Under the pieces are notes generated by a model that searched no databases, was not told where the DNA came from, and worked only from the letters and a program-made list of their open reading frames with translations. The position numbers and the translations under genes were made by a program. A stretch of DNA of 51,986 nucleotides, from the NCBI GenBank assembly GCA_944323035.1, contig CALUQY010000016.1, forward strand, positions 1 through 51,986, in the 5' to 3' direction. Source of the stretch: Candidatus Gastranaerophilales bacterium (GTDB lineage Bacteria > Cyanobacteriota > Vampirovibrionia > Gastranaerophilales > Gastranaerophilaceae). Positions 4,644-51,985 of the stretch are shown here, piece after piece (positions within the stretch are counted from its first letter, which is position 1; each line of letters opens with the position of its first letter).

Positions 4644-4777
4644 CACTTTACACACCTGCCGGGGTCAACCGGCTCCCATAACGGAACCTGTGCTTGCGTT
4701 TAATGTTTTACGCACCACTGCCGGTCAAGGCGGTTTCATAACTGAAGCTGTACCTGCGGTTATCGTTTTACGCACCA
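4641..4777. repeat. 60-bp tandem repeat at the 3' end of a prepilin-like gene
   Basis: Two imperfect 60-bp units (4641-4700 and 4701-4760) plus the first 17 bp of a third. The third overlaps the terminal codons of the prepilin-like gene (TGC GTA AAA CGA). Unit 2 repeats the TGG TGC GTA AAA end in the same orientation and unit 1 is more diverged. Each unit carries a CCGG-based inverted repeat around TTGAC or TCAA. It looks like the gene end was duplicated outward and then decayed. Confidence 0.6.
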
Positions 4778-6011
4778 GGCGTAATATGAATATGTTTCTT
4801 TTTCATAATCATCTGTTAAGCCGCTAGATATTGACATACCCCAGACTTTTGTACTGGAAATATTGGTTGTCGACCAAATCGTTGGAGCACTGGAAGAGCT
4901 TGAATCTATCAACAAATTTTTATTGATATACATTGAAGCCAGTTCATCAATATTTGGCAGTCTGTATTCCGTATCATAGGCAGTACAAGCTTTCACGGCT
5001 TCAGGCTGATTATATGTATCATCTAATCTCCGCGGTGCAGGATACGGTGCAACAACTTTCACGTCAGACGGATACAGGGCTGTGATAAAACCGATATCTT
5101 TACCAACTGTGTTAGGGCCCTTGTTGCCATTTAAGTCATAGACAAAGTTTGCACAAATTTTAGGTGAAATTCTAAACCCGCCGTAACCTTCAGAAGTTTC
5201 GGCCAGACTGCCAACGCACTTAGGGTTATAATATAGGATTACGCTTTCACCGTTTGCAGTTTCAAAAGCCGCGGCCTTCGTGTCATAAAGTGAATAATTA
5301 TTATAACTGTCAGAAAGTGATATTGCCATTTGATCGTTTAATTCTCCCATGGTTTTCGGAACATTAATCTGCGACGCTTGTAATGTTGTTATCCGGCTTG
5401 CGACCCCGCAGTCTTCCAGATGATCACTGTCACAGATATTATTAATTTTCATCACTTTAGACAACCCGCCGGTAATAAATGTTTCAGCAGCGGTATCAAT
5501 TGCAGAGGCAGACGATGTAGCCTCCACAACTGTTCCATAACCGTTAATTGAATCCATTAATGGAATTGCCTGACTAAATCGAGCGTAGAGTGCTTTTCTC
5601 TGCGTATTCCATGTCCGCTCATTAATGTTTCCGGTAAGGCTTGGTAACGTTATCGCAGCCACCACACCGATTATCGTGAGGGATAATAAAATCTCAGCCA
5701 TGGTAAATGCACATTTCTTGACCGACAGCCTGTTGACCAAACATAGAACCGACTCAGTCGGTGTCATCCCGAATTGCGCGAGCGAGCGGAGGCACAAAGC
5801 GAAAACCACGCTTTTCGCGGTGCCGTTTTTCGCGAGTCGAGCAAGACGGTTTCGGGATCTGGCCAACGTTACCGGTAGCTCGCATCGCTGGACAGATGCT
5901 GAAACGAGTTCAGCATGACATGGGGAACTAACATCCTCAATACCTAATTTTGCGGGTAAGGAACCCCCCCCCCCCCCCCGTGCACGGGAATACTCTTCGT
6001 TTGTTTTTCAT
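4760..6011 (-). CDS. Prepilin-like surface protein, phase-variable (assembled OFF)
   Basis: The body has an N-methylation prepilin segment (CAFTMAEILLSLTIIGVV; F+1 and E+5 present), a helical stalk (NERTWNTQRKALYARFSQAI), a middle with KAAAFETANGES and VYDLNGNKGPNTVGKD, and a C-terminal lectin-fold-like part (LPNIDELASMYIN, IWSTT, ending AWCVKR). It should be a membrane-anchored pilin or pseudopilin with an exposed variable end. I place the start at ATG 6011 because AGAAAGGATGGAAAG precedes it and the same start context recurs in the paralogs. From there the 16-G run is one base too long and the frame stops soon after. With 15 G it would run about 416 residues. From the in-frame TTG at 5866 it is 368 residues. 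No secretion or pilus-assembly gene lies nearby. Confidence 0.7.
5964..5979 (-). repeat. G16 homopolymer (phase-variation tract)
   Basis: Sixteen C on the plus strand, i.e. G16 in codons 11-16 of the prepilin-like gene starting at 6011. In frame at 15, or any multiple of three. As assembled it is out of frame. Confidence 0.75.
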
Positions 6012-7949: not shown

Positions 7950-9155
7950 TCAAGCCACACCTGCATAATCCCAGAGTCTTTTAAGAATAAACGCCTGACG
8001 AACACAGGTATAATCTTTTGCCGGATAGTAAAACGGGTATGTAATCGCGTGGCAGATACGTTTTCGGAGTTTGTATCCGTTTGTTGCCCGAAGCATTCCG
8101 ACATAACTGTTAAATACCGACGCCAGCCACTCAAGAACATTTTCGCCGATATCATAAACACCGTTTTCGTAGCGTTTTACGAGCCTGAAAATATCCCTTA
8201 ACGTTCTTTGGCGCAGGTAGAAGCGGTTAGGTTTTGCGACGTATCCAACGAAATCAATTCCGTTAGAAACGAGGTTAACCGTCTTTTTATCTTTGTGCAG
8301 GACAATGAGCAGATTTTGCGAAATAAAATCCGCGATTCTGTCATAGCAGTAATTAAGCCTTTCAGGCGACTCATCCATAATCACGAAATCATCAACATAG
8401 CGGCAGTAATATTTACATTTCAACTCGTGCTTAACAAACTGGTCAAGCACATCAAGATACACATTACTAAAAAACTGGCTGGTAAGATTGCCAATCGGAA
8501 GCCCCTTGTCAGCAGGGCAATTCCAGAGGCTTTTGTAGGAAGGCAGCAGGTTAAATTTCCACTGCGGCGACTGAACGATTACATTATCCTTCGGGTTATG
8601 ATAGACAATTTGCCGGATTAAATCGCGCAGCCACGGTTCCGGAATTCGCTTCAACAACAGTTCATAGAGAATATTTTTGTCAATTGAAACAAAAAAATTC
8701 TTCAAGTCTGCCTTGAGGTAATAAGCTTTTTTTGTGTAATCGTGCGTAACAGCCTTGGCATATTTAGCGACTTTTTTGGCAGCGTTCAGCGTCCCTCTGC
8801 CGGGGATACAGCTGAAAGTATCCTTTATAAAGGTCGCGTAAAATCTGTCTTTAATCGCATTATACACAAGGTGGTGAACAATTCTATCCCTGAAAGAAGC
8901 AGCCCAAACTTCACGCGGCTTGGGTTTGAGCACGACAAAACAGATGCTTACTCCGATTTTATATTCACCGGATTTCAACTCATCATAAAGCTTCATCATG
9001 TTAGATTCCAGATCGAATTCAAACTCCATGGCAGAAAGCGAAGAGCGCTTGCGCTTCCTGCACTCGTAGTAAGCCTTATAAAGGTCCTCTATTGTAAAAT
9101 CCAACTTGAAATCAACGTTTTTGAATCTACGTTTTTTATGCTTGTCTTTTGCCAT
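7950..9155 (-). CDS. Diversity-generating retroelement reverse transcriptase
   Basis: A 401-residue reverse transcriptase. Palm motifs in order: YLKADLKNFFVSID (catalytic Asp about 150), GLPIGNLTSQFFSNVYLD (about 218-235) and YCRYVDDFVIM (YVDD about 253-256). The GxxxSQ form in place of QGxxxSP is the recognised mark of DGR reverse transcriptases. There is no maturase or endonuclease domain, so it is not a group II intron protein. It copies the TR RNA into adenine-mutagenised cDNA that replaces the VR of the target gene. I start it at ATG 9155. A longer in-frame reading from 9224 would run into the TR, and GGTGG and GGAA lie just ahead of 9155. Gene order target-avd-TR-RT matches the Bordetella phage BPP-1 DGR. 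Confidence 0.93.
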   Translation of the reverse strand: MAKDKHKKRRFKNVDFKLDFTIEDLYKAYYECRKRKRSSLSAMEFEFDLESNMMKLYDELKSGEYKIGVSICFVVLKPKPREVWAASFRDRIVHHLVYNAIKDRFYATFIKDTFSCIPGRGTLNAAKKVAKYAKAVTHDYTKKAYYLKADLKNFFVSIDKNILYELLLKRIPEPWLRDLIRQIVYHNPKDNVIVQSPQWKFNLLPSYKSLWNCPADKGLPIGNLTSQFFSNVYLDVLDQFVKHELKCKYYCRYVDDFVIMDESPERLNYCYDRIADFISQNLLIVLHKDKKTVNLVSNGIDFVGYVAKPNRFYLRQRTLRDIFRLVKRYENGVYDIGENVLEWLASVFNSYVGMLRATNGYKLRKRICHAITYPFYYPAKDYTCVRQAFILKRLWDYAGVA

Positions 9156-9208
9156 TTCCAGATTTTCCACCGGGGGCAGCCAAAAAGAAAAAGTTAAAAT
9201 CTCCTGTT

Positions 9209-9346
9209 TTATCACCTGACGCACCGCACATTGTTGCTATTGGACCGCGTGTTCGGGTTGCGGTTGCCCGTATTGAAATTCTGGTTCCATGCTGTGCCAG
9301 ACTCTCCAGAAGAAATGACAGAGCCAGACCAAAAGTTACCGGACGC
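9209..9346 (-). repeat. DGR template repeat (TR)
   Basis: A 138-bp repeat of 11221-11358 lying between avd and the reverse transcriptase. Read on the minus strand, 9 of the 11 TR/VR differences change a TR adenine (A to G, T or C). They fall in codons AAC, AAC, AAC, AAC, AAT and AGC. By my count TR has 34 adenines in this sense, so about a quarter are changed, against 2 changes among 104 other bases. Near the 3' end TR reads TGATAA where VR reads AGATAA, a single non-A difference like the IMH*/IMH polymorphism of known DGRs. Confidence 0.93.
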
Positions 9347-9619
9347 TTGGAGGCAGACAAAAATCGACAAGACGAATGAATACTTACCGCATTTTTACCT
9401 GAACCCCGTTTCCGTCATCCCCGGTCACGGGCAGGTGCAATGCGTTTTTGCAAAAATCCGTTCATAATGCCGACTCAAGAGCTTTCACTCTTGACTTCTG
9501 TTGGCACGAGACCTCCTCACAATAAAAGATTAATCGTTACTTTTTAACGCCCAACCAGTTATAAGAGGCGGTTGACCCCGCCAACCGCTGCCGACGAGAT
9601 AAAATAGCACGCTCTGTTC
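9347..9619 (-). other. DGR RNA leader between avd and TR
   Basis: About 270 bp with no convincing gene. On the minus strand it holds two hairpins: GCGGTTG/CAACCGC just after the avd stop (about 9568-9592) and CAAGAG/CTCTTG with a six-base loop (about 9478-9497). A GAGGAGG site is followed by only a ten-codon GTG frame. It is expected to be part of the TR-containing transcript that the reverse transcriptase and Avd recognise. The hairpins are seen; the role is inferred. Confidence 0.5.
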
Positions 9620-9988
9620 CTACACCGGGGAACAGACTCTGGCCGTATTTTCAAAAGATTTTAACCAACCCGTTGACTGTTTTTCCAAACTGTCACGTTT
9701 TTGAATCAACGCAAAAAATCGGTTATCACCCAGTATTTTAAGGTCGTGGGCCGCTCTGATGAGTACGCCCAATTCTTGTATATAACACAGTAAAAGCTTC
9801 AAGGATTCCACCTTGTCTTTGGCTGTATTTGTTATATACACCTGTTTAAGTAGTTTAATCGCAGAGTGATGAAAGTGTTCCCCCAAAGTATATCTGTAAT
9901 CCTTATGGAAGGTTTTGGTCACCTGCAGGACATCTATAAACAAGTCATACGTAGTCTTATAAATAGGCAGATGCTCATACCTAGCCAT
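9620..9988 (-). CDS. avd: DGR accessory variability protein (Avd-like)
   Basis: A 122-residue helical, basic protein resembling the four-helix-bundle family shared by Avd and the 23S rRNA intervening-sequence proteins. Visible features are MARYEHLPIYKTTYDLF, an aromatic/Lys helix (KTFHKDYRYTLGEHF) and a C-terminal helix with WLKSFENTAR. Avd binds the reverse transcriptase and TR RNA and is needed for cDNA synthesis in studied DGRs. AGGAGA lies about ten bases before the ATG. It has its own promoter candidate (10026-10054) and is probably co-transcribed with the TR and reverse transcriptase. Confidence 0.85.
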   Translation of the reverse strand: MARYEHLPIYKTTYDLFIDVLQVTKTFHKDYRYTLGEHFHHSAIKLLKQVYITNTAKDKVESLKLLLCYIQELGVLIRAAHDLKILGDNRFFALIQKRDSLEKQSTGWLKSFENTARVCSPV

Positions 9989-10025
9989 ACTTTCTAACTC
10001 TCCTGGAAAAACTAATTACAGTTGT

Positions 10026-10054
10026 AATATAACACGCCAAATTTAATTTGTCAG
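10026..10054 (-). promoter_or_regulatory. Promoter of the avd-TR-RT unit
   Basis: Minus-strand CTGACA, 17-nt spacer, TATATT, about 40 bp ahead of the avd ATG. It sits back-to-back with the strong promoter at 10100, so the region is a divergent promoter pair. Confidence 0.55.
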
Positions 10055-10099
10055 CCGAATGTTAATTTTTGTTATAGATTTTGCCAAAAGATTAGCCCG

Positions 10100-10128
10100 T
10101 TGACTAATATAAAACATTAACCTATAAT
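10100..10128 (+). promoter_or_regulatory. Strong consensus promoter of a small gene in the DGR locus
   Basis: TTGACT, exactly 17 nt, TATAAT: one of the closest matches to the sigma70 consensus in the window. It would start transcription near 10135 and drive the small peptide/RNA gene at 10207. Confidence 0.7.
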
Positions 10129-10206
10129 ACCGACAGGGTAAGTGCCTTCCACTTCCGCTGACACACACGATTATATGAAGAAATCGGTCAGAGAGGAGGT
10201 GAGGAA

Positions 10207-10281
10207 ATGACAAAGGAACAAATAAAGACTGCTATAATTGCAGTTATAGCAGTCCTTAAATTCATTTTAACTTTGTTATAG
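10207..10281 (+). CDS. 24-residue hydrophobic peptide in the DGR locus
   Basis: A very strong Shine-Dalgarno (GGAGGTGAGG) directly precedes an ATG opening 24 codons. The peptide begins MTKEQIKT and continues as one hydrophobic stretch of Ile, Ala, Val and Leu with a single Lys: a short membrane peptide. A perfect 11-bp stem-loop lies inside the coding sequence and another long hairpin follows the stop. The combination of consensus promoter, strong ribosome site, tiny hydrophobic product and structured message resembles type I toxin genes, or the RNA itself may be the product. I do not recognise a family. It is on the opposite strand from every DGR gene. Confidence 0.6.
   Translation: MTKEQIKTAIIAVIAVLKFILTLL
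10227..10254 (+). other. Perfect 11-bp stem-loop within the small gene
   Basis: Arms GACTGCTATAA and TTATAGCAGTC pair perfectly around a 6-nt loop (TTGCAG), within the codons of the 24-residue peptide. Such a stem right after the start codon could control translation or be the functional part of an RNA. Confidence 0.7.
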
Positions 10282-10286
10282 GGCAT

Positions 10287-10329
10287 GAAGAGAGTCCTTA
10301 AACTAGAGATTAAGCTTTAAGGGCTCTTC
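10287..10329 (+). terminator. Long hairpin after the small gene
   Basis: Arms GAAGAG-AG-TCCTTAAA and TTTAAGG-GC-TCTTC pair with a small internal loop. The following bases are only moderately T-rich, so it may be a terminator or an RNA-stabilising 3' structure. Confidence 0.5.
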
Positions 10330-10381
10330 CCTATATTGTTATTATCAACTATTTATATAAGTTTGTCAAGTGATGAAAACA

Positions 10382-10720
10382 GAACGCCATTGCATAATAA
10401 AGGCTCTGCGGAAGAGAACTCCTCCGCAGATGCAGACCGAACTTAGCCGTTAAGTATATCGGGTATATTAAAGATTAAGTCCGGTTTACGTGTGTCTAAA
10501 TTCAACTGAAAGGATAGAATTGTTGTTGTTTTTTGTCACACGAAAAAATTTTTTATGCCGGCATTACAAGCACCGGCAAAGTTGAAGAAAAGACTCGCGC
10601 AAGTTGGATTTAATACACGAGTCTTGGTTTATACTAAATCCGAATTTACAATTACTGTATAACCTGGAAAATACCGCAAGTAAATTGGACAACGGTGTAT
10701 AAACCGTACAAGCAAAGTTT
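10382..10720. other. Gene-poor interval with small hairpins
   Basis: I see no convincing gene here. It contains short inverted repeats CTGCGGA/TCCGCAG (about 10406-10431), GCCGG/CCGGC (about 10557-10579) and AAGACTCG/CGAGTCTT (about 10587-10625). A 35-codon plus-strand frame from ATG 10555 to 10662 spans the last two but has no ribosome-binding site. It could be part of a structured RNA or a decayed region. Confidence 0.35.
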
Positions 10721-10722
10721 TC

Positions 10723-10880
10723 GTCATTGCGAGGAGTGAGCGCAGCGAACGACGCGGCAATCCACTTAAGTACGCAACGTCGATTGACTGGATCACCACG
10801 TTGCCTGCGGCTCCTCGTGATGACTACAGCACGTCATTGCGAGGAGTGAGCACTGCGAACGACGTGGCAATCCCGCTAAG
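10723..10880. repeat. Two copies of a dispersed REP-like palindromic repeat
   Basis: Two direct copies start GTCATTGCGAGGAGTGAG and end GGCAATCC (about 10723-10765 and 10833-10875). They are separated by a related diverged copy. The same family recurs at 12554-12815, 24022, 39729, 47777, 51513 and 51694 in either orientation. Confidence 0.65.
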
Positions 10881-10911
10881 CACGCAACTTGCCATGACTG
10901 AAAATTTTCAC

Positions 10912-10940
10912 AAAAATCCGCCGGTAAACGGCGGATTTTT
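10912..10940. terminator. Bidirectional intrinsic terminator
   Basis: A perfect 12-bp stem AAAAATCCGCCG/CGGCGGATTTTT with loop GTAAA. It lies downstream of the DGR target gene on the minus strand and would separate the target from the avd-TR-RT unit. Confidence 0.8.
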
Positions 10941-11220
10941 GCGTTTAACCTGGATTAACCCGTCCTTGAACTTTGTATTTACAAAATTTCCGGATATGTG
11001 CTAATCATATTTTGTTGTCAAATTTCAATATCATCTATTTGGTGTATTTTTGCCTTATTTCCTTGACCTGCGGGCGTTTTAGCCTTATAATTAAATAACA
11101 GATTGGTATTTAACGTGAGGTTTAACGCTTTTTAAATATTTAGGTCAGGTTTCTGGAATTCGATGTGAGATTTGTTAACAGGCTCTTTCGGTTTCGAAAA
11201 ACACGAAATGACTGAATAAC

Positions 11221-11358
11221 TTATCTCCTGACGCACCGCACATTGTCGCCAACGGACCGCGTGTACGGGTTGCGGTTGCCCGTATTGAAATTCTGGGCCC
11301 ATGCTGTGCCAGACTCTCCAGAAGAAATGACAGAGCCAGACCAAAAGACGCCGGACGC
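11221..11358 (-). repeat. DGR variable repeat (VR)
   Basis: The last 46 codons of the target gene, 127 of 138 bases identical to the TR. Changes relative to TR codons, from N to C: AAC to GTC, AAC to GCC, AAC to TAC, AAT to GTT, AGC to GGC and AAC to GAC. In the 340-residue reading from ATG 12243 these are residues 299, 316, 327, 331, 332 and 333. Structural codons (TGG, GGC, TTC, CAG, TGC) are unchanged. The changed residues cluster in the lectin-like end, as expected for a displayed binding surface. Confidence 0.93.
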
Positions 11359-12403
11359 AATACCTAGGAGAGTTCTATTATAGAACATGGCTGACAGTTC
11401 ATCGCGATTTGGCAGCCTTGCTTCGCTGTCTTGTTTTTTGCAGAGTGCTCCTGCTTCTGTCTGGGCAGATGTGCCAGCGTTGGACGCCATCGGGAACGGT
11501 GCAACTACAACCGGATCTGACGGATACAACGCCGTAATAAAGCCGATATCTTTACCGACTGTGTTTGGGCCTTTGTTACCATTTAAGTCGTACACAAAGT
11601 TTGCGCACATTTTTGGCTGAGTGTAATGCCAGCCTGTTTCCTGCATATCTGCGACACAATTCGGGTTGTAGTAAACAAGAATTGATTCGCCGTTTGCAGT
11701 TTCAAATGCTGCCGCTTTCGTATCTAATTGACTATAGGTATAAGATGTTGATGCACTATCTGAACCAACATAAGTACCATTGAACATACTATTGAATGCT
11801 ACTAATGTGTTGTAGCTTGTCGTAAAGTTACTCAGCACATCTCCGTTCATCGCGGTAATTATGCTTGGAATACCGCAATCCTCCAATGCGTCATAATCGC
11901 AAAGGTTAGTTGTTTTTAATACTTTAGTAAGACCTTCGGTCAAGAACGCCATTGCAGCATCATCTTCAGCCTCATAGGAACTGCCGCTGCCGTCAATACC
12001 GCCAGCATGCAATGTGCCATAGCCATTCAGGTTAGGCATCAGAGAAAGCGCCTGAGAAAAACGCGCATAAAGAGCTTTACGCTGCGTATTCCATGTACGC
12101 TCATTGATATTACCTGTCAATGACGGTAACGTAATTGCAGCAACAACACCGATAATCGTTAAGGACAAGAGTATTTCTGCCATAGTAAACGCAGCATTTT
12201 TACACGGATTCCATTTATAGAACCGGCTCAGCCGGGCTGCCATAGTGAATACTACGCTTGTCGCAGCGGTTGTTGTTGACTGGGAGAATTTACCTAGCCA
12301 CTTGGATATTAGCCAGTCGGGCTGTTCAGCCGGTCGCCCCCCCCCCCCGGGTCAAAATCCCCATATTACAAGGATTTTCAGCTTTTTTGTTTTTCATGTA
12401 CAT
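11221..12403 (-). CDS. DGR target: hypervariable prepilin-like protein, phase-variable (assembled OFF)
   Basis: The conserved body has leader KNAA, then FTMAEILLSLTIIGVV (F+1, E+5; cleavage expected before F), a helical stalk, the family blocks ETANGES and VYDLNGNKGPNTVGKD, and a C-type-lectin/FGE-like end (LPNRDELSAMFYN, GVFWSGS, TAWAQNF, NVRCVRR) that carries the VR. It is therefore a predicted membrane-anchored, pilin-like display protein whose outer surface the DGR rewrites. AGAAAGGAG precedes ATG 12403 (a second in-frame ATG is at 12397). From there the G12 run is out of frame and a stop follows; 11 or 14 G would give about 393 residues. From ATG 12243, which lacks a good ribosome site, the product is 340 residues. 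Its leader is the shortest of the family. Promoter at 12440-12468. Confidence 0.85.
12337..12348 (-). repeat. G12 homopolymer in the DGR target leader
   Basis: Twelve C on the plus strand, G12 in the message within the first 25 codons from ATG 12403. Unlike the others this copy needs 11 or 14 G to join the start codon to the prepilin frame. The flanking sequence also differs from the other copies. Confidence 0.75.
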
Positions 12404-12439
12404 TCCAGTATAACTCCTTTCTGATTAACTCATACAATA

Positions 12440-12539: not shown

Positions 12540-12830
12540 TCGGTAGGCAAAGTCTCTTACTGAATTGCCACGCGGTCTACGACCGCTCGCAATGACGCAC
12601 TTTTGTCATCACGAGGAGCCACAGGCGACGTGGTGATCCAGTCAACCAATGTTGCATTCTTAAGTGGATTGCCATGTCGTTCGCTCTGCTCACTCCTCGC
12701 AATGACAAAAACCGTGAACTCGGTAACGAATATGGCTGTCGACTCAGTCGACCTCGCGATGACAGGCTTGACACAACGTCATTGTGGGGAGTGAACGTAG
12801 TAAGTGGCGAGGCAACCGGCATAATTTCCT
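12540..12830. repeat. Cluster of REP-like palindromic repeats
   Basis: Four or more diverged copies in alternating orientation, with hallmark ends GTCATTGCGAG and GGCAATCC, for example 12554-12597, 12606-12643, 12666-12705 and 12778-12815. No gene is visible in this stretch upstream of the DGR target. The short frames across it are repeat translations. Confidence 0.6.
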
Positions 12831-18896: not shown

Positions 18897-19408
18897 TAAT
18901 AATATCTCTGCCTTGGTAAAGGCACTGAGTGCCATCCACAAGGGTTGAACATGACATTTTAACGACCAACCTAAACAGGAAGCCACCTTGACCGGCGGTG
19001 TCATTCCGAACTGCGCGAGCGAGCGAGCGGAGTGCGGAGTGCTGAAAGCACGTAGGCACGTTTTCCGCGAGTCGAGCAAGACCGTTTCGGGATCTGGCCA
19101 TTGTTACCGGTAGAACGCAACGCCGGATAGATGCTGAAACTGTCTTGGATTTGCTCCACGCTCGCAGAGTTTCGCCTAAGGAGCTTTGCTCCAACAGGCT
19201 CAATCTGCTCGCTAGCCGGTTTTCACTTCGTTCAACCGTACGCAAATCCGCTAGTTCAGCATGACAGGTATGTTTTACATTCCCGCTTAGTGCCTCTGCT
19301 CGCTCGCGCAGTTCGGAATCACAATTATAGGCTTTCGACTCGCCAATAGTGCCTGTTAAGAGAGGCCCCCCCCCCCCCTGATAAAATGCTTACTCTTCGG
19401 TTTTTCAT
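18889..19408 (-). pseudogene. Body-less prepilin cassette: leader remnant
   Basis: It has every 5' part of the prepilin-like cassettes: promoter (19540-19568), hairpin UTR, AAAGGATGG ribosome site, ATG AAA AAC start, and a G run followed by PLLTGTIGESKAYNC. It then has repeat-derived leader text (CHAELADLRTVERSENR, LARLAENVPTC) and stops, abutting pyrG, before any prepilin segment. With 12 G the frame would run 172 codons to its stop; with the assembled 13 it is closed. The leader is most like that of the pseudogene at 22753-24240. Loss of the body is probably due to recombination between cassette copies. Confidence 0.65.
19366..19378 (-). repeat. G13 homopolymer of the leader remnant
   Basis: Thirteen C on the plus strand preceded by AAGAGAGG, the same flank as the runs at 24195, 48142 and 51940. 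In frame at 12, out of frame as assembled. Confidence 0.75.
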
Positions 19409-22752: not shown

Positions 22753-24240
22753 TCAATTCCGTTTTACGCACCTTACATAGCCTTTGCTTTCATGAGGATA
22801 AATAGTTCCGTCATACACAGACAGGTGCCATGAAGTTCCGGGAGCAATCAGCGAGGATGAGATGTAATAATAACCACTTGTACCGATACCGCCAATTAAA
22901 TTTTTATTTACAAAGATAGCCTTCAACTCATCATGAGTCGGCAAACGGCTTTCACTATCCAACTCCCTGCAGTGCTTTAAAGCTTCCGAAACAGAGTATT
23001 TTGAATTTAAATCCCTTGCCAGTGGATAAGGCGCAACAATTACACTATCAACAGAGTTAAATACCGTGATAAAACCAATATCTTTTCCAAAAGTATTAGG
23101 CCCTTTGGTACCGTTCAAGTCATAAACAAAATTTGCACACATATAAGGCTGAATATAATGAGTTTCATAACTAGTATCAGTACGGCAATATGGATTATAA
23201 TAAACTATTACACTCTCGCCGTTAGCAGTTTCAAAAGCCGCAGCTTTTGTATCTATCTGTGAATAACTATGCACAACACCGTCACTTCCGACACCACTAT
23301 TATAATTAAAATAGTTGTTAAGTTCTACAAGTGTTTTCGGGACAGGTGAAATCGGACTTCCGGAATAAGGAATAATTTTATCAGGGATTCCACAATCCGA
23401 TAAGTGTTCACTGTCACAGATATTGTTAAGTTTTAACACTTTTGAAAGCCCGTTTGTAACAAAAGTTTCTGCAGCAGTATCCACAGCGTCGCTTGCACCG
23501 GAAGAGCTTTCTTCTTGTAGTGTTCCGTAACCGTTTAGTGCGGCATCAAAGCAATTGCCTGACTAAACCGTGCATAAAGCGCTTTTCTTTGCGTGTTCCA
23601 TGTACGTTCGTTTATGTTGCCGGTGAGTGACGGTAACGTTATCGCCGCTACCACGCCGATTATCGTGAGAGATAATAATATTTCTGCCATTGTGAATGCT
23701 AAATTTTTGCTCGGATTCAATTGTGGAAGTCGCTCAGCCAGTGACATCCCGAATTTATTTCGGGATCTGGCCGGCGTTACCGGTAGCACGCAACGCCGGA
23801 TAGATGCTGAAACTGTCTTGGATTTGCTCCACGCTCGCAGAGTTTCGCCTAAGGAGCTTTGCTCCAACAGGCTCAATCTGCTCGCTAGCCGGTTTTCACT
23901 TCGTTCAACCGTACGCAAATCCGCTAGTTCAGCATGACAGATACTTTTCACATTTTCGCTTTGTGCTTCTGCCCGCTCGCGCAGTTCAGCATGACAACAT
24001 GGGGGCGCGGCGTTTTTGACTGGATTGCCACGCCGGCATTCGTCGGCTCGCAATGACGAAATATTGTCACCCTGAACTCGTTTCAGGGTCTGGCCAATGT
24101 TGAATACCTGCTCGTATCGCGGGACAGATTCCGAAACAAGTGCGGAATGACAATTATAGGCTTTCGACTAGCCAATAGTGCCTGTTAAGAGAGGCCCCCC
24201 CCCCCCCTGCATTTGTTAATACATTTCTGCGGTTTTTCAT
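22753..24240 (-). pseudogene. Prepilin-like gene broken by a frameshift and a nonsense codon
   Basis: It has full-length family architecture but at least two lesions besides its G run. After QAIALMP the sequence reads ATGCCGCACTAAAC where the paralogs imply ATGCCGGCACT, a one-base loss that stops the N-terminal part at 23535. The frame resumes at ALNGYG and runs to CVKRN. In the leader, the GAG present at this point in the orphan leader and its sisters is TAG, inside the frame the G run would open. The G13 run is itself out of frame. The body is otherwise well conserved (ICDSEHLSDCGI, AFETANGESVIVYYNP, LPTHDELKAIFVN). The lesions could be real decay or, for the missing G, a sequencing error. 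Confidence 0.75.
24195..24207 (-). repeat. G13 homopolymer of the pseudogene
   Basis: Thirteen C on the plus strand in the common AGAGAGG flank, about 11 codons after ATG 24240. One G too many to reach the prepilin frame. Confidence 0.75.
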
Positions 24241-46707: not shown

Positions 46708-48186
46708 TCATCGTTTAACACACCAGACTTTAAGGTTACTCGATGTGTTACGTGCAAAATCATCAACCTGTCCGTTTGCATAAACAGCTAAAAATCTGAC
46801 AGCAGTATTATTTGAAACTAAGGTAGATGTCCAAAAAACACCGCTGGATAAGCCAATCAGATTTTTATTAACAAACAGTGAATACATTTCCTCCATATTT
46901 GGGATTCTATATTCACTATCATTAGCAGTACACTCTTTGATAGCATCAGAACTGTTTGTGTAGGTTGTATTGGAAGATCTAACATACGGATAAGGCGCAG
47001 ATATTTTAGGATCACTCGGATACATTAACGTCATAAATCCTATATCTTTACCGACAGTATTAGGCCCTTTGTTGCCATTTAGATCATATATAAAATTTGC
47101 ACATACACGGTTTTGTCCCCAATATCCCGTGGTACCGTGCCATGTAAGGTTTTGCAAATCACCAACACAATTCGGATTATAATAGACTATAATACTCTCC
47201 CCGTTCTGTGTTTCAAATGCCGCGGCCTTTGCATCCATAATGCTTATACTTTCTGTTGCCATAGATATTGCCCCAACCATATTAGAATTCAGCTCTCCCA
47301 TAGTTAAAGGAAGTGATATTGCACTGCCGCCGCCAAGCGGAGTAATTACAGAAGAGAAGCCGCAATCTTCCAAATGTTCATTATCACAAATATTGTTAAT
47401 TTTTAAAACTTTTGAAAGCCCGCTGGTTATGAAAGTTTCTGCGGCAGTGTCCTCAATGGATGTTGAACCCGCACTGTCTGTAGATTCTCTTAATATGCCG
47501 TAACCGTTCAACGCCGGCATAAGCGCAATTGCCTGACTAAACCGCGCATAAAGGGCTTTGCGCTGGGTGTTCCATGTGCGCTCATTTATGTTACCCGTAA
47601 GGCTTGGCAAGGTAATCGCCGCAACCACACCGATTATCGTGAGGGAAAGCAAAATCTCAGCCATGGTGAACGCTATTCGTCGTCCGTGAGCCCGTAAACC
47701 CTTTATGGCTCTCGACTCAGTCGAGCGGCTCAGCCGGGCGGCCATGGTAAACGTTGCATGCTCCAACCACCCTCTGTCATTGCGAGCGGTCGCAGACCGC
47801 GTGGCAATCCAGGCACTGAGTACCATCCACAAGGGTTGAACATGACTTTTTAACGACCAACCTAAACAGGAAGCCGCCTTGACCGGCGGTGTCATTCCGA
47901 ACTGCGCGAGCGAGCGGAGTGCGGAGTGCGTGACGCACGTAGGCACGTTTTCCGCGAGTCGAGCAAGACAGTTTCGGAATCTGGCCATTGATACCGGTAG
48001 AACACATCGCTGGACAGATGCTGAAACGAGTTCAGCATGACAGTTATGTTTTACATTCCCGCTTAGTGCCTCTGCTCGCTCGCGCTGTTCGGAATCACAA
48101 TTATAGGCTTTCGACTCCTCAATTGTGTCTGTTAAGAGAGGCCCCCCCCCCCCTGTGCAAGTAATTACACTTCTCTGTTTTTTCAT
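46708..48186 (-). CDS. Prepilin-like surface protein, phase-variable (assembled ON)
   Basis: The only family copy whose start is in frame through its G run. AAAGGATGG precedes ATG 48186, giving MKKQRSVITCTGGGGPLL, then a leader of about 170 residues translated from palindromic repeats (CHAELVSASVQRCVLPV, LARLAENVPTC). The prepilin segment IAFTMAEILLSLTIIGVV follows, then the stalk, the ETQNGESIIVYYNPNC and IYDLNGNKGPNTVGKD blocks and the lectin-like end (IPNMEEMYSLFVN, GVFWTSTLVS, ending VWCVKR). Total 492 residues. A leader this long is unusual for prepilin peptidase, so processing is uncertain. A longer in-frame reading from 48255 has no support. Confidence 0.8.
   Translation of the reverse strand: MKKQRSVITCTGGGGPLLTDTIEESKAYNCDSEQRERAEALSGNVKHNCHAELVSASVQRCVLPVSMARFRNCLARLAENVPTCVTHSALRSLAQFGMTPPVKAASCLGWSLKSHVQPLWMVLSAWIATRSATARNDRGWLEHATFTMAARLSRSTESRAIKGLRAHGRRIAFTMAEILLSLTIIGVVAAITLPSLTGNINERTWNTQRKALYARFSQAIALMPALNGYGILRESTDSAGSTSIEDTAAETFITSGLSKVLKINNICDNEHLEDCGFSSVITPLGGGSAISLPLTMGELNSNMVGAISMATESISIMDAKAAAFETQNGESIIVYYNPNCVGDLQNLTWHGTTGYWGQNRVCANFIYDLNGNKGPNTVGKDIGFMTLMYPSDPKISAPYPYVRSSNTTYTNSSDAIKECTANDSEYRIPNMEEMYSLFVNKNLIGLSSGVFWTSTLVSNNTAVRFLAVYANGQVDDFARNTSSNLKVWCVKR
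48142..48153 (-). repeat. G12 homopolymer, in frame
   Basis: Twelve C on the plus strand, read as four Gly codons (CTGGGGPLL). It is the reference for the ON state of copies with the AGAGAGG flank. Confidence 0.8.
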
Positions 48187-50546: not shown

Positions 50547-50570
50547 AAAAGCCGGTTTCCCGGCTTTTTT
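50545..50570. terminator. Shared bidirectional terminator
   Basis: AAAAAAGCCGG/CCGGCTTTTTT with a TTTC loop, between convergent stop codons. Confidence 0.9.
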
Positions 50571-51985
50571 AACGTTTTACACATAAGGCATGATATGCTG
50601 CCCCGTCGCCTGGAACTTGTATTCCATAACGCCCATTTGTCATATCCATAACCCAGAGAACAGTGCGAGTCCGTGAAGTTTGGCTTCTACTGGATGTCCA
50701 ATAATTACCTGAAGTTCGCCCGATTAAGTCACGATTTACATATAGAGCAAAGGCTTCTTCCTTATTTGGCAGCCTGAAATCAGAATCCGATTGCGTACAC
50801 AATTTCGCTGCGTCAGATATTTCTACCGAATCAGAAACATTATTTGTCTGCGGCATTGGTGCAACGACAATACTATCAGAAGGATAGTATACAGTTAAAA
50901 TTCCCATGTCTTTTCCAACAGTATTAGGGCCTTTGTGACCATTTAAATCATAAATCATATTCACGCAGACTTTTTCCTGCGCTACATAAACAGAGGTTTC
51001 ATTATAAGACGGACGACACCCGGGAGAATACAGCAATGCTATACTTTCTCCGTTTTGGGTTTCAAAAGCCACAACATCCTGATCGTCTTGTGAAAATGAG
51101 CCATCAAAAGTAGTTCCATCAGATCTGGTATAAAATACACTTATTGAAACCATTGTAGAATTCAACTGACTCAATGTCAACGGAAATGATTTTTGAGAAC
51201 CGGCCAGGTTAGTATAACTGGAAACAATACCGCAATCTCTAATATGATCTTTGTCACAGATATTGTTAATTTTTAATACTTTGGCCAGAGCGCCGCTAAC
51301 AAAAGCCTCACCGCTAGAGTAAGTATTAATACTGTCAAGCAAAGGAAAAGCCTGAGAAAATCTTGCATAAAGCGCTTTTCTTTGCGTATTCCATGTGCGC
51401 TCGTTTATGTTGCCTGTAAGTGACGGAAGCGTAATCGCCGCTACCACACCGATTATCGTGAGGGATAACAGTATTTCTGCCATGGTGAAACCGACACACG
51501 CAAACCACTTCCTGTCATTGCGAGCGGTCGCAGACCGCGTGGCAATCCAAGCACTGAGTGCCATCCACAGGGGTTGAACATGACTTTTTAACGAACAAGC
51601 CAAACAGGAAGCCGCCTTGACCGGCGGAGTCATTCCGAACTGCGCGAGCGAGCGGAGTTCAGCATGACAACATGGAGACGCTGTGTTTTTGACTGGATTG
51701 CCACGCCGACATTCGTCGGCTCGCAATGACAAAAAATTGTCACCCTGAACTCGTTTCAGGGTCTGGCCAATGTTGGATACCTGCTCGTAACGTGGAACAG
51801 ATTCCGAAACTGTCTTGCTCGACTCGCGTAAAACGGCACCGCGAAAAGCGTGGTTTTCGCTTTGTGCCTCTGCTCGCTCGCGCTGTTCAGAATGACAATT
51901 ATAGGCTTGCGACTCCTCAATAGTGCCTGTTAAGAGAGGCCCCCCCCCCCCCTGTGCAAGTAATTACACTTCTCTGTTTTTTCAT
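50569..51985 (-). CDS. Prepilin-like surface protein, phase-variable (assembled OFF)
   Basis: The body has VGFTMAEILLSLTIIGVV, the stalk, AFETQNGESIALLYSPGC, IYDLNGHKGPNTVGKD, and a lectin-like end (LPNKEEAFALYVN, GNYWTSSRSQ, ending ALCVKR). ATG 51985 lies at the right edge and opens MKKQRSVITCTGGGG exactly like the ON copy, but the G13 run shifts it into a stop within ten codons. With 12 G the frame would be open for 471 residues. The leader again consists of translated palindromic repeats. From an in-frame TTG at 51732 the reading is 387 residues. The promoter lies beyond the window. Confidence 0.7.
51940..51952 (-). repeat. G13 homopolymer, out of frame
   Basis: Thirteen C on the plus strand with the same flanks as the in-frame run at 48142; the surrounding 40 bp are nearly identical to that copy. 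Confidence 0.75.

Follow-up and report, generated by a model that had tools for sequence, protein, structure and literature searches.

A diversity-generating retroelement and a putative phase-variation tract at one prepilin gene of a Gastranaerophilales bacterium

Can one surface gene join two unrelated devices for local hypermutation, a retroelement that rewrites it and a G tract with the anatomy of an on/off switch? The question is raised by positions 7950-12403 of a 51,986-nt stretch of contig CALUQY010000016.1 (assembly GCA_944323035.1), called the window below, from the 1.94 Mb genome of a Candidatus Gastranaerophilales bacterium, labelled G000. The host lineage consists of non-photosynthetic cousins of the cyanobacteria, and its identification in a preliminary description as a gut melainabacterium agrees with the species of the same genus, which include Candidatus Gastranaerophilus phascolarctosicola Zag_221. 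Sequence comparisons confirmed that the locus is a genuine diversity-generating retroelement (DGR). We consider it very probable that this DGR is functional and cellular, that one prepilin has its lectin-like tip rewritten by it, and that the gene of this prepilin is a contingency gene as well. A literature search among open-licence papers returned none describing phase variation or DGRs in Gastranaerophilales.

The retroelement and evidence for repeated homing

The target gene, Avd, the template repeat (TR) and the reverse transcriptase lie in this order on the minus strand (Table 1), which is the BPP-1 order reported in the preliminary description, and several libraries confirmed the reverse transcriptase and Avd; TR pairs with the variable repeat (VR). 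The GxxxSQ and YVDD motifs ascribed to the reverse transcriptase were read as IGNLTSQ and YVDD. The protein matched Pfam RVT_1 (1e-16) and PHROG 1423 reverse transcriptase (5e-102), the solved sequence closest to it is the 8ub7 reverse transcriptase (E=1.3e-40), and a scan of NCBIfam matched reverse transcriptase models below cut-off only. Avd matched Pfam bAvd above the gathering score (1.4e-11), PHROG 'Avd protein of DGR' (1.5e-18) and, below that model's cut-off, NCBIfam DivGenRetAVD (7e-11); a sequence comparison of Avd with the PDB gave no match, nor did an Rfam scan of the DGR locus. Downstream of VR there is a small, weakly supported hairpin (z -2.1) that is poorly conserved in congeners and a ATTTCGCGTTTTTCG-like sequence that is conserved.

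TR and VR form an ungapped direct repeat, 138 nt long and 92% identical. Read on the coding strand they differ at 11 of the 138 positions and nine of these 11 are TR adenines (hypergeometric p=5.1e-5, given that adenine makes up 34 of the 138 TR bases); the realignment thus reproduced the counts first given for this repeat. Of the two remaining differences, a T>C lies close to the 5' edge and a T>A six bases before the 3' end. Relatives have the T>A at this position too, and it marks an end resembling the initiation of mutagenic homing (IMH/IMH*) sequences. As originally described, the altered codons are AAC, AAT and AGC, and the Trp, Cys, Phe and Gly residues are kept; that these codons are untouched holds for the residues, one silent GGT>GGC change being present. 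The variable codons, 10 AAY and one AGC, allow about 2.3e12 possible protein variants. A search of the G000 genome for further repeats returned one VR and one TR only, and comparison of 74 paralog C-termini in G000 at the DNA level gave no further VR and no recognisable VR-like copy.

The activity of the element was assessed from six other genomes of the genus, a comparison made between species only. All six have an intact reverse transcriptase, 83-98% identical in five and 66% in the sixth, and Avd is likewise intact. TR is present in all of them and VR is adenine-biased in each except G002, where, the 3' end apart, VR and TR are the same at all mutable adenines. The nearest species, G003, has a TR identical to that of G000 (138/138), and between their VRs there are 14 differences, of which 13 fall on TR adenines. 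Concentration of VR variation at TR adenines and an undamaged reverse transcriptase in relatives, the two points on which the preliminary description staked its reading, were therefore both found. A comparison of six species at the non-adenine columns where their TRs differ comprised 162 cells; in 156 of them VR and TR from the same genome agree, and a 25-nt indel common to TR and VR is among these within-species agreements. All six disagreements lie within the 3' IMH-like end; a TR-VR difference at this end is present in the six-species comparison, with none in the aligned part of G005. In G004 the sole resolved VR is 90 kb from TR, the VR of the TR-adjacent target being a run of Ns. Given that TR and VR change together within each species, repeated retrohoming is indicated, and the simplest reading of the alignments is that transfer from TR to VR happened repeatedly after the species split.

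These comparisons bear directly on the suggestion that the DGR is a dead relic, in which the differences between TR and VR would be old and their renewal would have ceased. There is only a single VR in G000, the target is out of frame as assembled, and the VR of G002 has no adenine changes outside the 3' end, all of which would suit a relic. A relic would not be expected to have kept the reverse transcriptase and Avd intact in all congeners, to show VRs differing at 13 adenines between two genomes with identical TRs, or to have copied species-specific TR changes into VR, and we regard this explanation as quite improbable. A public record labelled Fusobacterium sp., JAMPIJ010000002.1 (L155), contains the same DGR at 84% reverse transcriptase identity. 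Its contig matches G002 and the record is probably mislabelled.

A further explanation is that the DGR belongs to a prophage and acts on a phage structural gene: many DGRs are phage-borne, and other genomes of the family do carry DGRs with a phage-like target (L061). At the present locus this explanation is refuted because the setting is cellular. The surrounding genes of the window, recognised by sequence, encode a TPR protein and CTP synthase-like, SecY-like, ribosomal-protein-like and RNA polymerase subunit-like proteins, no phage structural genes were found beside the locus with PHROGs, and the target belongs to a prepilin family. Viral contigs gave no TR match and only a reverse transcriptase relative of 25% identity, and we give a prophage origin next to no weight. 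The loci L061 (G001:C16), L060 (G012:C14) and L059 (G013:C7) are different, divergent DGRs in relatives; the target of L061 resembles a phage tail protein.

The target prepilin, its paralogs and their poly-G tracts

The target was called prepilin-like in the preliminary description, and its N-terminus indeed contains the class III prepilin signal A/FTMAEILLSLTIIGVVAAITLP with (G/A)-F, E at +5 and a hydrophobic stretch. The match to Pfam N_methyl (E=0.001) is narrowly below cut-off. One prepilin peptidase and several pilus-type ATPases are encoded in the genome, and we infer that the target is displayed as a pilus or pseudopilus subunit. The lectin-like tip, also proposed earlier, is supported by similarity to Lcl_C and by fold. 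Pfam Lcl_C was matched in six of seven family members, the match of the target itself being below the gathering score. An AlphaFold model of the target is confident at residues 240-323 only, and in fold comparison these residues resemble the C-terminal domains of Legionella Lcl and Bdellovibrio Bd2740. Foldseek matched the C-terminal domain to 8q4e (1.2e-4); structural alignment gave Z 11.8 (VIA), rmsd 2.5 and 94 aligned residues for 8oks, and Z 11.7 (VIA), rmsd 2.7, 92 aligned residues and 28% identity for 8q4e, which is Lcl. VR spans the final 45 residues of this Lcl-type domain.

The target is one of about 80 near-full-length paralogous prepilins spread over G000 (113 matches). Their first 48 residues are nearly identical, their tips differ and most end in a W...CVKR frame. 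Five of the other genomes of the genus have large prepilin families, with at least 37 matches each, and G005 has few. This lectin-pilin repertoire takes up roughly 5% of a small gut-bacterial genome. The preliminary description was right about the DGR target and lacked the family of about 80 paralogs, the poly-G tracts and the out-of-frame state. Gene conversion homogenising the pilin N-termini was considered and gave no clear signal, identity being 0.81 within G000, 0.78 within G003 and 0.79 between them.

The open reading frame (ORF) of the target had been taken to run from the ATG at 12403. As assembled it is not open, since it crosses a tract of 12 G and stops after 25 aa. When tract lengths of 10 to 13 were tried, the ORF was 393 aa at 11 G and 25-31 aa at 10, 12 and 13. 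The tract of the DGR target is G12 in G000 and G15 in G003, both out of frame, and G11 in G004, in frame, where the leader reads directly through into the pilin. The DGR targets of G002 and G005 have no tract.

Tracts of this kind are a property of the family. In a survey of 74 paralog copies with their surrounding stretches, 58 (58 of the 66 with enough upstream sequence) carry a poly-G tract of 8-16 G, always with G on the coding strand; 34 are G13 and 15 are G12. Eight of the 16 copies without a tract are truncated by the ends of the contig or of the fetched stretch. A conserved AAGGATRGAAA...ATGAAAAA start stands ahead of the tract; about 30 nt separate the two in the majority of copies, and the distance is about 50 nt for the DGR target and a small number of other copies. 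A genome-wide search with the tract pattern gave many matches in G000 and none with the reversed control, reverse-strand counts being re-counts of the same tract. The window has six runs of at least nine G or C, all in the same orientation and five of them upstream of family genes. A G13 tract at 19366-19378 has no recognisable pilin gene behind it and is a probable remnant of a family member. Between species the tracts of orthologs differ in length (12/15, 12/14 and 13/17), and in another genus, G027, G tracts precede other prepilins in 8/8 loci examined.

Table 1. Features of the DGR locus and of the prepilin family members in the window.
Feature	Position	Strand	Remarks
Paralogous prepilin-Lcl gene	4760..5710	-	G16 upstream at 5964-5979
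DGR reverse transcriptase, 401 aa	7950..9155	-	ATG at 9155; IGNLTSQ and YVDD motifs
Template repeat TR, 138 nt	9209..9346	-	direct repeat of VR; same in nearest congener G003
Avd accessory protein, 122 aa	9620..9988	-	Pfam, PHROG and NCBIfam matches
Variable repeat VR, final 45 codons and stop of target	11221..11358	-	9/11 TR differences at TR adenines
Target prepilin, Lcl/C-type-lectin-like C-terminus	11221..12403	-	ATG at 12403; in frame only at poly-G 11 (or 11 ± 3n)
Poly-G tract, G12 on coding strand	12337..12348	-	proposed phase-variation switch, between start codon and prepilin motif
Shine-Dalgarno region AGAAAGGAG	12404..12425	-	upstream of target ATG
Paralogous prepilin-Lcl gene, broken frame	22753..23699	-	G13 upstream at 24195
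Paralogous prepilin-Lcl gene, ON as assembled	46708..47673	-	in frame with G12 tract at 48142
Paralogous prepilin-Lcl gene	50569..51492	-	G13 tract at 51940

The tracts have the anatomy of slipped-strand phase variation, from which switching would follow. Reading on from the tract, the pilin frame reaches the pilin without a stop, over up to 765 nt, in 55 of 58 copies in G000, and it is likewise open in 16 of 16 in G003; the other two frames together are open in one and none, respectively. That this one frame is kept open and the others are not suggests selection for translation through the tract. Several points weigh against this combination of DGR target and contingency gene. As assembled, the majority of copies are off and the DGR target is among them: in G000, 11 are on, 43 are off by one phase and three by the other, and such a skew (43 vs 3) is unlike free slippage and may include assembly error. 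Homopolymer lengths are unreliable in draft assemblies, so the on/off state of any single gene is uncertain. The leaders from start to pilin are unusually long, away from the C-terminal domain the structure model is poor (mean pLDDT 53), and surface display and ligand binding are predictions. Finally, VR and tract variation were compared between species only.

Some of these points would be explained if the DGR were real and active and the poly-G tracts did not switch, being leftovers or part of a transcribed leader with the pilins starting downstream. In its favour, most copies as assembled are out of frame with the start codon, and certain leaders include an ATG or a candidate GTG start, for example at the M of MAARLSR or the V of SVKKCAFT. 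A start downstream does not readily account for a tract-to-pilin frame open in nearly all copies and not in the other frames, nor for the conservation at protein level, in three species, of the target leader beyond the tract (RP.EQP..LI..WL), and the G003 target has no Met codon from the tract to the pilin motif. Non-switching tracts are unlikely, though the least unlikely of the alternatives, and translation through a switching tract is preferred.

A 127-nt dispersed repeat (GTCATTGCGAGGAGTGAGC...) occurs at 10717-10843 and 12586-12712, inverted, 87% complementary and either side of the target, and similar repeats seem to be in-frame within many pilin leaders. G000 paralog leaders (e.g. L028, L029, L094) often carry AFTMAARLSR... 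ahead of the true AFTMAEIL. This resembles the pattern that an element inserting at AFTMA and duplicating the motif would leave.

A proposed mechanism and the origin of the repertoire

Our proposal combines the two devices. TR RNA would be copied by an error-prone reverse transcriptase with Avd and the product would replace VR, altering the 10 AAY and one AGC codons of the target. Within individual cells, slippage in the G tract would turn the expression of each pilin on or off, and a population would show few pilins at once. The prepilin peptidase and the pilus ATPases would display the prepilins as pilus subunits, the tips of which presumably bind gut glycans or proteins. A less sure step is that duplication of the target may spread finished VR variants into the phase-variable family.

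The sister species G001 is relevant to this last step. Beside its TR-adjacent VR there are about nine copies with VR-like ends. Each of them departs from TR at 10-15 adenine sites and at anything between 0 and 30 non-adenine sites, and most of the matches end ahead of the IMH-like end. Such a combination of adenine and non-adenine differences is expected of archived products of different age. The copies are suggestive, but not proof, of once-diversified tips that are no longer rewritable, that is, fossil VRs. A wider reading, in which the DGR generates the whole repertoire, with new tips arising at a single VR or a few of them and the gene then being duplicated or its tip copied to other members, is tentative and somewhat less probable than its negation. 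The same doubt attaches to its corollary, that recipient members lose the IMH, keep VR as a fossil and switch by poly-G slippage. The system lets the storage of DGR products as paralogs be tested, and it provides a handle on what gut Melainabacteria bind. At four pairs of G000/G003 loci (L020/L141, L022/L148, L021/L145 and L019/L133) the 3' flanks match (87-97%) and the C-terminal coding parts differ, possibly by tip replacement at a fixed locus.

Comparison with known systems

The BPP-1 DGR of a Bordetella phage has the order mtd-avd-TR-brt. The present locus shares with it the gene order, the adenine-specific change of VR, Avd and a C-type-lectin-like target domain, and its reverse transcriptase is related to the solved reverse transcriptase 8ub7. 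It differs in being chromosomal, in having a prepilin as target where BPP-1 has a tail-tip protein, and in the poly-G tract upstream of the target; a strong hairpin after VR is not well conserved among the congeners. Legionella Lcl, a collagen-like adhesin (8q4e), is alike in the family and fold of its C-terminal domain. Unlike Lcl, the target has no visible collagen repeats and is fused to a prepilin N-terminus.

In Bacteroides, DGRs are reported to diversify type V pilus tip proteins (Macadangdang et al. 2024, cited in PMC12632263). The systems are alike in that a DGR acts on a pilus tip or adhesin of a gut commensal; the pili there are of type V (lipoprotein) and from Bacteroidales, whereas type IV-type prepilins of Gastranaerophilales, in a large, phase-variable-looking family, are found here. 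Poly-G phase variation is known in, for example, Neisseria HmbR/HpuAB and Campylobacter (PMC3786947, PMC8355987). As at those loci, the tract lies inside the reading frame and the ORF depends on frame, and here the lengths differ between orthologs. Unlike those loci, the tracts described here accompany about 80 paralogs of one prepilin family, one of which also carries the VR of a DGR.

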